A stretch of DNA of 64,000 bases, from contig NC_018198.1 in NCBI RefSeq assembly GCF_000219625.1, positions 186,001 to 250,000 of the forward strand, given 5' to 3'. A model generated the notes under the pieces. The model saw only the letters and a program-made list of their open reading frames with translations, did no database searches and was not told the DNA's origin. A program made the translations under genes and the position numbers. Positions 19,930-26,900 of the stretch are shown here, one piece after another. Positions within the stretch are counted from its first letter, which is position 1. Each line of letters begins with the position of its first letter. Source of the DNA: Zymoseptoria tritici IPO323 (lineage: Eukaryota; Ascomycota; Dothideomycetes; Mycosphaerellales; Mycosphaerellaceae).

Positions 19930-21504
19930 CTTCGAGTTCATCATTGAGCATAGTTGAACCTTCGGGAATTGTCTCTCCTGAAGCGCGCCGCTTCTTGAGT
20001 AGCAGCAGGTATTGAGCAGGGAAAGCGTTGTTGAGGAGCGACAGGTATTCTATGCGAGGTCAAGGTCCCAATTCAAGGTCGAATCCTCCCTTTGCGTAGA
20101 ATGGAAGTCTTTCCATGTTGATCGCAACGCTTGTCCGAGGGTCTCGATGCCGTGGCCCTTCTAGCTGTCCATGACTCGCGTGTTTCTGCAGGACACATAT
20201 TTCAAACTTGGGCGTACACATTTCAATCCCTGACAACGAGTATGATGGAATAGCAACGCTGGAGTCGAGCTACAGGACATTCTGCGCGCAGAACGAGATT
20301 CCACTGGACAATACTCCCTTCGAAGGTGAGGGTGAGGGCATGGGACGAGGATGTTGGGCAGGACAATGCAGGGGAGGATAACTGGTTTCCATCGAGGCCT
20401 CAACTACGGTCGACGCGTCCTCTAACCGCAAGGAATGGAGATCCAGGGACTTGTTGGAGCAGCAGGAGCATCAGCCCACGAACGAGCGCAACGAACGAGC
20501 GCAACTCGAATAACCTACCATAATCGACACCAAAGCCCATTTCAAAAAGAGACGAGGAGAAATGCACGACACCGCTGGAGAGGGAGCACATCATGGCCAA
20601 TGTTCTGGACGATTGTCGAATCCGGACTTGACAGGAGAAGGAAGATGCGTGCCAAAACACAAGTGACGCATCATTCGCAGCAGCAGACGCAGAAGGGACA
20701 GGTGCTTGCGGAGTAGGAAGCACATGAAGGGACGAAGAAATCGAAGGACCGTCGCTTCACGGACAGCTCGGACAAGATCGTGCCGGCGTCGCAGGCGTCA
20801 GGCTGGTTTGGCAGGGAACTGGACTTTGAGGACGTGAGCTGGGAGTTGAAGAGGCGGGCTGGGAGTTGAAGAAACAAGTTAAGGAAGCGGACTAGAAGCT
20901 AAGGAAGCGACGGGAGCTCTCCCTCACCTGGACTGTGATTTGTAATGTCCTTGATGGGCAAATCAGCCCAGGACGACAGGCTCGCCATGGTTTTGAGGCT
21001 CCTGAGCGTGCTCCCGAAGGCCAGCCTGCCAGCTTTCAAGAATCACTCCATAGCAACACTATCCGTAATGAGAACTCTGACGACCTTGGTGATCGTAAAG
21101 TCGACAGAGCTGCTGATTGGACCTCTCGCACCGGCACGTATATGGGGTGTCCAGGGATTCACGGCAGACACTAAGGAAGACTGATCATCCGGCAGATTTC
21201 GACGTTGTTTTACAATCGACCGCACAAGTCGCTCGACTTAACCCTCTTCCAGCGTCAGATATTGGATCTAATCGCTAATCACTACACGGAAATCATCCTG
21301 AGGAGAAAACTACTACCAAATCTCCTCCGCATAAACGTCGAATGCCCTGCAGGCAATGGCAGATCGTTCTGGGGATACCAGCAGGACAACCTTCTCTCAC
21401 GGCACGGACAGTAGGAGTCGCCCACATTGGTTCGCGGGAGCTTGCAGGAAACCTCATCTTACACAGGCACAGAATCGAACGATTGACGGCTTGGTACGGC
21501 GGCT
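19930..21504 (+). pseudogene. Decayed coiled-coil gene region
   Basis: Frames around 20400-20900 carry Glu/Gln/Arg-rich helical stretches such as RKEWRSRDLLEQQEHQPTNE, TTPLEREHIMANVLDDCRIR and WELKKQVKEAD, but in three different frames with stops between. This is how an old coiled-coil gene looks after frameshifts. Frames at 20935-21184 and 21205-21414 may be its 3' part. Composition is normal (no RIP). The transposon nest begins at 21505, so the gene may also have been truncated by that insertion. Confidence 0.3.
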
Positions 21505-21510
21505 CAAATG
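21505..21510. repeat. Left target-site duplication of E1 (CAAATG)
   Basis: Identical to 26845-26850 on the other side of the element. CAAATG is also the first six bases of the E2 left end, so the target was the tip of E2. Confidence 0.8.
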
Positions 21511-21554
21511 ATCGCGGCCCATATGTTTATGTAGGTCACTACACCTCATTTCTC
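21511..21554 (+). repeat. Left terminal inverted repeat of E1
   Basis: 44 bp, matched by the reverse complement of 26801-26844 with a single mismatch. This end is much less RIP-mutated than the interior. Confidence 0.9.
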
Positions 21555-22181
21555 AAAACCTCGTTTTATCGCTATTGCAATGTTGCTCTGCTAACGCTTA
21601 CTAAGCGCTCGTAACGTCTACCTCTCTTGCTCGTAATAGCGTTCTTCTTCTTCCTTTAATTACTACCCTTACCGCCCTCGCTGCCCTACAATGCCTCGAA
21701 CCGCCCTTAACATCGACTACCTCTAAGCCGAGATTAAGCTCCTACTTAGAGTCTCCGAGTAGACTTATAGCTAGGTTATCGACTAGCTAAGGTAAGAGAA
21801 GAACGTAGATATCGAGCCTCGCACCTTTCGAAGGATACTAGCTAGATAGGAGCTGTTAACGCAGCTAAAGCTATATCTAGCGGAGGAATATAGGGCACTG
21901 CTATACATAAGGATTAAGGAGCTTTTCTAGAAATAGGATATTAAGGATAAGAGGCTCTTAAGGTACTTAAGGAAGGACGGTTTTAAGCTGTTATTAGGGC
22001 AGTTACGGACGATTCGGAAGCAGCTGGGCTTATATCGAAAGGTTCTAAAAGATAAGCAGCTAGAGCATAATAAGGTTATACGGATAGCGTTAAGGGGGAC
22101 GATTGTAGGCGGTGCTATAGACGACTATAGATACAAGCAGTTAGCAAGGAACCTACGGAAGGATTTCCACCTTATAGGAAG

Positions 22182-22341
22182 GTCTGTATATACGCTCGTA
22201 AGCACGCTCGCAAGTACGCTCGCAAGCTAGATCCTCTCCTCGTAGGCTGGATTCGTCCGCTCGTAAACTCTAATTTACGCTGCTCCCCTTGCTCGTAAAC
22301 TCCTCCGCCTAGCTCGCACGCTAACGCTCGCCTGCTCGTAG
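22182..22341 (+). other. Intron 1 of the E1 integrase gene, packed with GCTCGCAAG-like words
   Basis: 160 bp, GTCTGT at the 5' end, GCTAACG branch-like site, CTCGTAG at the 3' end. Splicing joins HLIGR to NRISYIAYSLNPAGYN in frame. At least eight CTCGCAAG, CTCGTAAG or CTCGTAGG words occur inside. Confidence 0.65.
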
Positions 22342-22636
22342 GAATCGTATATCTTACATCGCGTATTCCCTTAATCCTGCAGGTTATAATGCACGCCGCC
22401 GGAGGGGTGCTTAGGAGCTAGTCTAGCACAGTCGTCCAAAGGCTAAGGGCCCTAATTATATATAGTTAGTAGATACCTACTACAAGTTCGAGACCTTTAG
22501 CATCTGCTTTTACGCCTATATCGATGTATTTACACGGAAGATTATATAGATCTACGTAGGCACTATAGCTAAGACGGTCTTCTTAGTTTCTAAGTAGTAT
22601 TTGGATATAGTCCGAGAACTCGGCTTTACGCTATAG

Positions 22637-22694
22637 GTAGGCTCGCAACCGGTTGTGCTATACTCGCAGCTCTACTAACTTAATTTACATATAG
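22637..22694 (+). other. Intron 2 of the E1 integrase gene
   Basis: 58 bp from GTAGGC to ACATATAG, with a perfect TACTAAC branch site at 22673-22679. Removal restores GFTLW-IMRADYGVETP across the second catalytic Asp. It also contains GCTCGCAACC and CTCGCAGC. Confidence 0.75.
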
Positions 22695-23749
22695 ATTATG
22701 CGGGCGGATTACGGCGTAGAGACTCCTATAATAGCTAATATACACCTCTTCTGCCGTAAACTTTAGGAGGGTTAGAGCATTAAGTTCCGCGATAGCTTCT
22801 GGTATACAACGAGCAAGGGTAATTAAACGATCGAGCGCTTCTGGGGTCTTAGTACAGCTATAGTATAGAATCGATAGCGTAATGCCTTCTACCGGCTTCG
22901 CGACGAAGAGCTCTACAGCGAGGATAGCAGGGCTAACCGTGTAGCATTCCTTGCGGTCTACGTTCTAATCCTCCGGTTTACGGTCGAGCAGTTTATTAAT
23001 AACTATAACGACTACGCTATTCGAAAGTAGGCTAAAGTCCTAGGGCACTTGCCTAGTATTCCGGCTTACAACTACGACTACCCTCCTAATAGCGTAGAGG
23101 ATCGCGGAATATACCTCGACGTAGAGCATCCGCGTATTAAGCGGATAGCAGATTAGCATACTTAGTTCGGTTAGTATTCCCCTACGCGCGAGCGACTCGC
23201 GAGCGGTTGCGAGCGGTTGCGAGACGACTAGGGTTAAGGAGCGGTGTAGGGATTGTAAGCTTGCAGGCCAGCTTCTTAACCTACTAGCGTTACGAGCGTT
23301 CTACGAGCGATAGCGAGCGAGCTAACTATTTACAGATCTTCTTACATACCTTCCTCCGCTAACCCTACTGTAGGCTTCCGAGATGCTAGTAGCTAGTAGC
23401 TATCCGGCGACGCTAGATAGTCGCGAGCTAGACGCCGACGAGGATAAGATCTATGTAGATGCATATCTCTACCTCCGCGATGCTGCTACTCGTTACCTTG
23501 CCGCTAGCAATAACCTCGCAGAGTTTTAGACCCCTCCGAAGGGCGCTAAGTTATAGCCGCGTAACCGTATAAGGGACTTCTTCCGTACTAATAGCTTTGC
23601 ATTCGACTAAGCTGTATATAAGGTTACGCCCTCCTACTCTTCCTCTTCCTCTCGCTTACTACCGTCCCTTATGTATACAGCCGTCTAATAGCTACCCCTT
23701 AGTTCTGCCGCAATCCTGCGGCTCTACCCTACACCTCTTATACTAACCT

Positions 23750-25411
23750 CGGCGATGAAAACTGTGGCTTCTACGGCTGCCCTCTACCCTTACGAGCTCC
23801 TACGAGCGACGACGACGAGCCTACGAGCGAACGCGAGCCTACCCCTCCTAGCTCTAGCGCTCGTAAGGGGTTCTTTATTCCGCAGAGCCGTGCTAATACG
23901 GAGATAAAGAAGACGGCTAAGACGAAGGCCCGCGAGACGCCTAACGCTGCCGCTAACTTACTTAAGGAGGCTAATTGCATTAAGGCTATACTAGCGAACT
24001 CTAAGAGTGCGAAGAAGGCTACTGCCGAGAAGGCTACTACTAAGAAGGAGAAGGACGATAAGGAGAAGTCGTTGCCGATCTTCTCTGTTAAGTGCACTAT
24101 TAACACTATCGACATAGAAGATCTAAGCGATAATAAGGACGCAGTAGCCAAGTATTCTAGTCGCCGCAATAAATACATATAGTTAGCCTAAGGTACTATC
24201 GCTGCAATAGACAAGCTCCTTAAGGACGCTAATAAGGAGAAACATAGCAATATCTTCCTACAGTATCTCTTAAACAAGAGCATAACTACGAGGAAGCGGC
24301 TATAGAAGCCCTACTATAACATCTACCTTACGAAGGAGTATAGTAAGGGCCAGCCTATTAAGCTCGGTAATACTAACCTCGCTACGGCGGACACTACGCT
24401 TAGGATGCTACAGCTCTTTAATCCGAAGACAGGCCTTAAGACTCCTTCCGCGAACGTCCGGATTACTTATATTATCTACGTAAAGGCTAACGAGTAAGGC
24501 GACCTTAAGCCTAGCTCTAAGAACGCGGACGACGGCGGCTAGATGTATTAGCACCTTAAACGCTCTATAAAGAAGGACGGTAGACCTACATTTAAGTATG
24601 TAATTAGCTACAGTATGCAGACTAATAGCACTGTCCTACACCCTAACGGTCGTGTATTTAAGGACAAGGACGGCGTTATTTACTATCTGTTTATATAGAC
24701 TAATAGCTACACTAGTGTCGACGGCAAGAAAGTCCTCGCAGGCCAGAGTTACCTACTCGCAAGCTAGCTCGCACCGGAAGCACGCTACCTTACAATAGAC
24801 GCAGGCCCGTCCGGCAGTAATAGCAAGGCGCTCGCAGATTAGTCCGCAGGGCTCGCAAGCCGTTCTCGTATAGCTCGCACTGCCCTTAGCTCCTCGCAGG
24901 ATCCGGAGCGCTCTAGCCCTCTGCCTTAGCAGCAACGCTCTAGCTCTAAACGCCCTACTAGCCGCGACCTCCAATTATCGCCGGTAAGCTAGCCTAACGA
25001 CTATATTCTGCTCGACCCTAACACGGACAGCTTAGACGATATAGCAAGGGCTAAGGAAGCCACCGCGAACTAAGCTAAGGAGAACAGTACATCTTCGACG
25101 ATTACCTCCGCAGCAGCTAGTGCGCTAGCGATCCCTTCGGGCTCGACGATACCCTCTTCGTTAGCGACAACGACGACGCTAACGCCTCAATTAAAGTCGA
25201 AGGCGAAGGAGCCTAGTAGTGCTACTACTACTACTGCTAACGCCGCTAGTTAAGGGGGTTTAGAGATGCTAGAGGAGGTCGCCGAGCCGGTCGTTTAGTA
25301 GCAGAAGATAAAGAAGAAGAAGAAGGTTAACGAGCCGGTAGTTGTTAGCACTAGACGGAGCGAGCGGACTATTAAGCTTACCGAGAAGGGCAGGGCTAAC
25401 TAGAAGGACTA
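23750..25411 (+). pseudogene. Second plus-strand ORF of E1, unknown protein, RIP-degraded
   Basis: From about 23880 a frame can be followed to the TAA at 25409-25411. It is Lys- and Ala-rich at first (KARETPNAAANLLKEANCIK), then has IFLQYLLNKSITTRKR and YLTKEYSKGQPIKLGN, then YVISYSMQTNSTVLHPNGRV and FKDKDGVIYYLF. A Ser/Thr-rich tail ends in VSTRRSERTIKLTEKGRAN. Stops are nearly all TAG. Around 24735-24870 the motif CTCGCAGG/CTCGCAAG is frequent and may mark an intron. The DGVIYYLF-like segment resembles a small beta domain, but I cannot name it. It may be an accessory protein of the transposon or a separate gene. Confidence 0.42.
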
Positions 25412-25764
25412 ATATACATAAATCTAATAAATACACGCTACCGACGACTCGCTCGTTACGTGCTCGCGGACTAAACGGAATAGCTCGCAGCTAGAAGGAG
25501 CAATAAACGTGTATCTTATATCTTAATAGCTTAATATCTTAATTCTCTTCCTTAAAAACAGCTCGCGGCGTGCTCGCAGGCCAAAACGGCTAGCTCGTAA
25601 GCGTGAAAACGAGGGATTTAAGGAGATATACAGCAACTAACGCATTTATTTAGGTATTAACGTACAGGCTCGCAAGGCTCGCGGAGAGCTCGCAGGCCAA
25701 ATCGATCTATCTATTAATCTATTACGCCTAGTCTACCGAACTTCTTGTTAACAGCACGCTAATA

Positions 25765-26539
25765 CTACAACACCGACTGCTCAATCTTAGCAATAGCAGC
25801 CTTTAACTTACTCCGCACGTTATTAACCTCGTCTATAATCTCCTTAATTAGCTCCTCCTTTAGCTAACCTTTTAAGCCCCTTAAACCGCTAATCTTACGC
25901 TTTAAATCCGACACCTCCGACTCTAACGTAGCGATCTTGTCCTACGCCTTATTTATCTTACCTCGCATGCTGCTAACTGCCTCCTTTAATACAGACTTCT
26001 TTTCTACCGGCTCCTCCTTAATCTTAACCTAATCTCTAGCAAAACACGGAGGCTTGCCCTTATAGTAGCAGTAGGCGTAGGCAGGGAGAGTCGTAGAAGT
26101 CTTACACTCGAGTCCGCGATCTTTGCACTAGCCGCACTCGGTAACCGCCGGAATGCCTGTTTTTTTTTATTAGCCTACGAGCCTTACTAAGAGCCGTGCG
26201 AGCTACATTACCTTCGTCCGTCTCTATAACTCTACGTACATAATCGTATCTTATAAGCATCTAACGTCCGCTCTTCTTAGTGTTTTTATTACTACTCTAT
26301 ACTCTAACGAGGGCATCGTTCTATTAGAGGTCGGAGATGTACTAGAAGTCTTTAGAGGTGGCCGTAGTAGGCTTATCGTAGACGAGAAGGTCGGCAGGTA
26401 GCTAAGGAGCAGGAGCGATAGCTGTAGTAGATGTAGTCGCTAGCTTATCGTCGTTGTCGTCGGAGAGAGAGAGTCCGCGTAGGCGATTAGGGTCGCGAGC
26501 CTTACTAAGTTCCGTATTAAGTAGCATCTAACTAGCCAT
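25765..26539 (-). pseudogene. CxxC zinc-binding and coiled-coil protein of E1
   Basis: Read on the minus strand from the ATG at 26537-26539: an acidic start, then WYISDLWNDALVRVW-like segments, a basic stretch ARTALSKARRLIKK, and one frameshift at the poly-T run near 26160. The Cys cluster ECGWCKDRGLECK follows, with YAYCYYKGKPPCF, then a charged heptad-rich coiled coil (KIATLESEVSDLKRKISGLR, LKEELIKEIIDEVNNVRSKL) to TAG at 25765-25767. Small Cys-rich plus coiled-coil proteins of this order occur in many fungal repeats. It faces the integrase gene from the right end of E1. E2 has the same arrangement (37384-38166), suggesting a conserved partner, for example a DNA-binding subunit (inference). 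Confidence 0.6.
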
Positions 26540-26800
26540 TTTTACGTACGCGCGAGGGTACGATATTGCGAGCGGTGTGTATTGTATAACGAGCGAGCTA
26601 CGAGCGCGCGCGGTAGAGTGGTAGAAGTAGTGGTGTTAATAAGAGTCGAAGAAAAGCGGTGTTAATAATACTTATCTGCGCAAACCGCGTATTGTCGCGC
26701 ACTTACATATAATTGTTAATAATTAGAGTAACTGGCGCAGCTGTATAGCGACAATACAAGCAATTGGCGACAATAGTAGTGGTGGTGTTATTGAAGAAAC

Positions 26801-26844
26801 GAGAAATGAGGTGTAGTGACCTACATGAACATATGGGCCGCGAT
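26801..26844 (-). repeat. Right terminal inverted repeat of E1
   Basis: Reverse complement of the left repeat (43/44). It is followed directly by the CAAATG duplication at 26845-26850. Confidence 0.9.
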
Positions 26845-26900
26845 CAAATGGCCCACCCCGCCAAATTCGGGATTCTGGATTTTCCGAATTTCTCTAAAAT
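26845..26900 (+). repeat. Left terminal inverted repeat of E2
   Basis: About 55 bp, less RIP-mutated than the right copy. Conserved blocks are AAATGGCCCACCCCGCCAAA and CCGAATTTCTCTAAA. Confidence 0.65.

Follow-up and report, generated by a model that had tools for sequence, protein, structure and literature searches.

The window analysed here, a stretch of 64,000 nucleotides from Zymoseptoria tritici IPO323 (contig C21, positions 186001-250000), contains a transposon, hereafter called E1, that can be delimited as a complete mobile unit, as an earlier sequence-only reading of this DNA had proposed. We conclude, with a probability of roughly 85%, that E1 is an inactivated copy of a DNA transposon with three genes, whose DDE transposase is of the integrase type and which made a 4-bp target-site duplication, and that it belongs to a lineage near IS3EU/GingerRoot. 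Its family is sizeable and shares these ends. Contig C21 is presumably an accessory chromosome; the genome searched comprises 21 contigs (39,686,251 bases), and the finished genome has been described as 21 chromosomes (PMC4522978).

E1 spans positions 21510-26845 of the window (5,336 bp) and has the ends GAT...ATC. Its terminal inverted repeats (TIRs) measure 45 bp when counted from the terminal G and are identical at 44 of 45 positions, the left one (21510-21554, forward strand) beginning GATCGCGGCC and the right one (26801-26845, reverse strand) ending GCGATC; the sole mismatch is a C-to-T change before A. The sequence-only reading had placed the repeats and this single difference correctly, but its length of 44 bp (43/44 identical) falls one base short. 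A search of the genome with the whole of E1 gave 49 matches, including E1 itself and end-to-end ones, many of them nearly full length at 79-96% identity. A 35-base end pattern with at most three mismatches was found at 5 places in the 39.7-Mb genome, against none for the reversed control. The pattern GATSGYGKCC-N12-TAGG gave 68 matches against 1 for its reversed control, and GATNGYG-N19-TYACTAC gave 74 against 5, the two sets overlapping. The outer 7-10 bases of these ends are conserved and are followed by 12 variable bases and then an inner box, an anatomy that suggests that cleavage and binding may be served by separate parts. Copies elsewhere in the genome carry the same kind of ends, rather than unrelated ones, beside other duplications.

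The length of the duplication was read from the flanks of copies matched by the whole of E1 and of places matching the end patterns, which together provided 45 end pairs, 32 from the E1 group and 13 from a second group. An exact 4-bp duplication is present in 38 of them (26/32 and 12/13, respectively) and an exact 5-bp duplication in none, whereas exact 4-bp matches averaged 1.15 and never exceeded 6 when the partners of the pairs were permuted 2,000 times. At E1 the duplicated sequence is AAAT, at positions 21506-21509 on the left and 26846-26849 on the right. The sequence-only reading had instead described a 6-bp duplication, CAAATG, and an ordinary member of IS3EU/GingerRoot. CAAATG does flank E1 on both sides, a 6-bp duplication is described as usual in IS3EU (PMC10045372), and Styx, an element of the same species, has been assigned to IS3EU with 6 bp (PMC10853768). 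However, only 6 of the 45 pairs can be read as 6 bp in that manner, and the ends are GAT..ATC, not TA..TA. Moreover, at the ends of other copies too, ATCG is preceded by G and CGAT is followed by C, irrespective of the flanking DNA; both bases are therefore part of the element, and the duplication is confined to the inner 4 bp. On the flank readings, the 6-bp duplication was rejected for this family, and the proposal built on it is hardly tenable. Flanking bases can thus make a 4-bp duplication look like one of 6 bp, which matters because duplication length serves superfamily assignment.

Seven pairs are without an exact 4-bp duplication. Three (C14:521260, C15:86338 and C1:2017263) differ by a single C/T or G/A change each, of the type caused by repeat-induced point mutation (RIP); two (C6:1114631 and C6:1185223) have exchanged flanks; and the remaining two (C2:230662 and C14:528121) were probably paired wrongly. 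The 38 duplicated targets vary in sequence and include a single CCGG. They show weak symmetry: GC content is 32% at the two middle positions of the 4-mer and 63-71% at its outer positions and the four bases on each side.

The target was also found uninterrupted. When the two flanks of E1 were joined and searched, nine matches were returned: the two flanks themselves, three matches to the right flank only, and four that cross the junction (C14:455201, C7:211232, C5:1844767 and C9:155634), in each of which the target is uninterrupted and AAAT occurs once. These empty sites, which the sequence-only reading had suggested looking for, are paralogous copies of a repeat rather than the same locus in another isolate, and they support insertion. 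Therefore, E1 went into another repeat about 15 bases from that repeat's end; the outermost 15 bases of this host repeat (TACGG...) lie at positions 21495-21509 on the forward strand, and it resumes at 26850. The host repeat has [TG]ACGG ends and is represented by loci L087-L110, with short copies of which many are near 489 bp. Exact 5-bp duplications flank 8 of the 10 short copies tested, and the host repeat is therefore an element of another kind. Judging from its flanks, L010 (C13:1101312-1108281), the closest relative of E1, seems to be inserted into this end sequence as well, at a different position and with the duplication GGTG.

The transposase gene of E1 can be modelled as four exons on the forward strand with 511 codons and 25 premature stops, equal in length to its best protein relative, P0001 from Z. 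tritici ST99CH_1A5. All four exons are broken: exon 1 (21691-22181) matches residues 1-166 of P0001, exon 2 (22342-22636) residues 165-260, exon 3 (22695-23169) residues 263-414 at 50% identity, and exon 4 (23336-23610), which ends at a TAA at 23608-23610, residues 422-509. The catalytic residues D208, D267 and E309 are invariant in seven aligned proteins and are all present in E1 (codons 22472-22474, 22707-22709 and 22833-22835), although another relative, P0010, lacks D208. The Pfam domain rva_4 (PF24764) was matched with 41.8 bits in E1, 52.8 in copy L024 and 65.2 in P0001, against a cut-off of 26. No match to rve (PF00665) was returned by Pfam in E1 or L024 (to E 0.1) or in P0001 (to E 0.5). 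The integrase-core gene with its D, D and E blocks had thus been rightly recognized between the ends, but its Pfam match is to rva_4, and it is broken. In P0001, Pfam also reported Clr5 and helix-turn-helix-like matches, with a weak match to HTH_21 below the cut-off.

Two further genes complete the element. They were delineated with the help of L064 (C16:541700-547129), a copy with little RIP damage that carries the transposase, gene 2 and, on the opposite strand, gene 3; all three genes are common to E1 and L064. Gene 2 of L064 has 602 codons with one stop. Its counterpart in E1 is broken and lies at 23703-25412 on the forward strand, as given by a tblastn match over 23703-25388 (E 1.7e-21) and by following the frame to a TAA, with an approximate 5' end. 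It encodes an orphan protein: no Pfam match was obtained, and a protein search that scored the 8,000 candidates with most words in common found one relative, P0008, also from Z. tritici. The conserved part of gene 3, likewise broken in E1, lies at 25780-26157 on the reverse strand (tblastn, E 4.3e-8) and comprises, as judged by eye, a cysteine-rich stretch and a coiled coil.

The state of these genes is attributed to RIP. TpA/ApT and (CpA+TpG)/(ApC+GpT) are 2.05 and 0.51 in E1; the 5 kb on its left side have 0.79 and 1.02, and L064 has 1.07 and 1.12. The 5 kb to the right of E1 are also affected (1.87 and 0.18). TAG accounts for 22 of the 25 premature stops in the transposase, and because of these stops E1 is unable to make a whole transposase. 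Across the window, every 2-kb step in 22001-48000 has a strong RIP signature (composite of at least 1.39), and every step from 48001 onwards is negative.

E1 belongs to one of three related groups in the genome, which have the GAT..ATC ends, the 4-bp duplication and the transposase in common; the three-gene order was shown for two of them. Copies are numerous and typically measure 5.3-5.5 kb. In the group of P0001 and L064 the ends read GAT[AG]G[CT]G...TTTCCCTYACTAC, the left and right ends being somewhat different. The third group was read at two loci, L085 with the duplication CCGG and L086 with GCGT, and its first end base is A, not G. A tree of catalytic cores was built from 14 copies, with stops written as X, nine proteins and three long terminal repeat (LTR) integrases of the genome, 26 cores in all. 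It supports the E1 group at 100/100, the third group at 100/99, the three groups with P0001 at 89/92, and these together with the metagenome proteins P0009 and P0010 at 96/99, with the LTR integrases apart at 99/97; the relatives in it are rva_4 proteins only, and the tool warns of long branches. In addition, six short elements of 500-705 bp have family ends, five of them with exact 4-bp duplications: 703 bp at C8:2110554, 705 bp at C13:410997, 636 bp at C1:2017263, 517 bp at C5:1454274, and 500 bp at both C13:488468 and C17:231046.

From this anatomy and from known DDE enzymes, a course of events may be proposed. The transposase, with helix-turn-helix-like parts before its DDE core, would have bound both ends, recognizing them as modules of an outer GATNGYG, a spacer and inner boxes, and would then have cut or nicked the element free. 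Its 3' ends would have been joined to target phosphates 4 bp apart, and gap repair would have left the direct duplication. E1 would in this manner have entered the end of the host repeat, with RIP breaking all three genes afterwards. We infer that the family's own transposase catalysed these steps, that the element moved as excised DNA, and that the short elements were moved in trans; whatever part genes 2 and 3 played would likewise be putative. A copying route, in which the donor is kept, would also suit integrase-type enzymes; in place of simple excision, such a route appears rather unlikely here. A 4-bp duplication would arise either way. After transposition of Styx a parental copy persisted, and its authors attribute this to the repair of a non-replicative event (PMC10853768).

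Comparison with known systems places the proposed three-gene transposon nearest to IS3EU, of which GingerRoot is the same lineage (PMC10045372). These elements also have an integrase-type DDE transposase, long TIRs and, in fungi, several genes (PMC10045372, PMC12730594), and the D, D and E residues are present in the E1 family. However, IS3EU elements are described with TA..TA ends (occasionally TG..CA in GingerRoot) and usually 6-bp duplications (PMC10045372), and fungal IS3EU elements bearing TET with TAYGG..CCRTA ends, 6 bp and an alpha-kinase gene (PMC12730594), whereas the E1 family has GAT..ATC, 4 bp and two other genes; no alpha-kinase was found in it by Pfam. The sequence-only reading had argued for a relation to IS3-like or Ginger elements. 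The direction towards IS3EU/GingerRoot holds in that the rva_4 domain points there, but the argument from a 6-bp duplication does not, and neither the IS3EU nor the Ginger1 description fits.

E1 would thus have worked as these elements do but differs from the IS3EU description in its ends and duplication, and its lineage may be a branch inside IS3EU or beside it. That it is nested within IS3EU/GingerRoot, with altered ends and duplication length and an unchanged mechanism, has an even chance: the rva_4 domain is common to both, the proteins P0004-P0007 resemble the transposase at 22-27% identity, and duplication length has reportedly shifted within the related IS481EU (PMC10045372). The two described IS3EU features that are absent, together with the alpha-kinase that Pfam did not find, argue against it. 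More tentatively, and on balance doubtfully, the GAT..ATC, 4-bp-duplicating rva_4 elements might form a superfamily-level lineage beside IS3EU/GingerRoot, with a conserved set of three genes (transposase, orphan protein and cysteine-rich coiled-coil protein) and short non-autonomous families of its own.

Ginger1 and Ginger2 have TIRs, an integrase-type transposase and, in most cases, a 4-bp duplication, as E1 does (PMC2836005). However, they are described with TGTNR ends and an N-terminal zinc finger in the transposase, and Ginger1 with CCGG or CCGT targets (PMC2836005), unlike the GAT ends and AAAT target of E1 and the varied targets of its family. A zinc-binding integrase domain was not reported by Pfam in P0001, although a missing Pfam match is no proof of absence. 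Assignment of E1 to Ginger1 or Ginger2 is thus very unlikely. The IS407 group of the IS3 family also combines a DDE transposase with a 4-bp duplication but is bacterial and forms a single compact unit (PMC10045372); the weak HTH_21 match of P0001 may be a further likeness. Styx, an element of the same species whose transposase is ascribed to IS3EU, likewise has additional genes, two of its four coding sequences being known only from the genus (PMC10853768), but by its description it differs from E1 in length (about 7.9 kb), TIR (36 bp), duplication (6 bp) and copy number, with one degenerate copy in IPO323 (PMC10853768, PMC9970103) as opposed to many.

The searches made of open-licence papers brought up no description of a 4-bp-duplicating IS3EU-like lineage. 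In its accessible text, a 2014 survey of the genome gives neither TIRs nor duplications for its DNA transposon families, apart from miniature inverted-repeat transposable elements (PMC4522978). The curated Z. tritici library of 2023, with the Zenodo record 10.5281/zenodo.8379981, is described as holding 331 consensus sequences, among them 92 DNA transposons and 105 unclassified ones, with TIRs recorded where present (PMC10652580; also PMC12612061), and repeat libraries of Zymoseptoria therefore probably include a consensus for E1-type elements already. What is provided here, for a set of integrase-core proteins of fungi, is a definition at the DNA level in terms of ends, duplication length, gene order and short derivatives.

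Several arrangements of family copies deserve mention. The two elements with exchanged flanks (L050-L053, C6:1114631-1120053 and C6:1185223-1190645) have the swapped 4-mers GTTT..CACA and AAAC..TGTG, as expected for an inversion of about 65-76 kb by recombination between inverted copies. At C12:756693-768872 (L039, L013), ends of different subfamily types have an exact 4-bp duplication, CTGG, in common; either both types were mobilised as one element or one of the ends has undergone conversion. Eight flanking bases are identical, in inverted orientation, at C14:521260 and C14:534356 (L031, L058), which suggests a local inverted duplication. Finally, ends 33 kb apart at C8:94435-127053 (L054, L028) have an exact 4-bp duplication, GATT, and appear to belong to one element split by large nested insertions.
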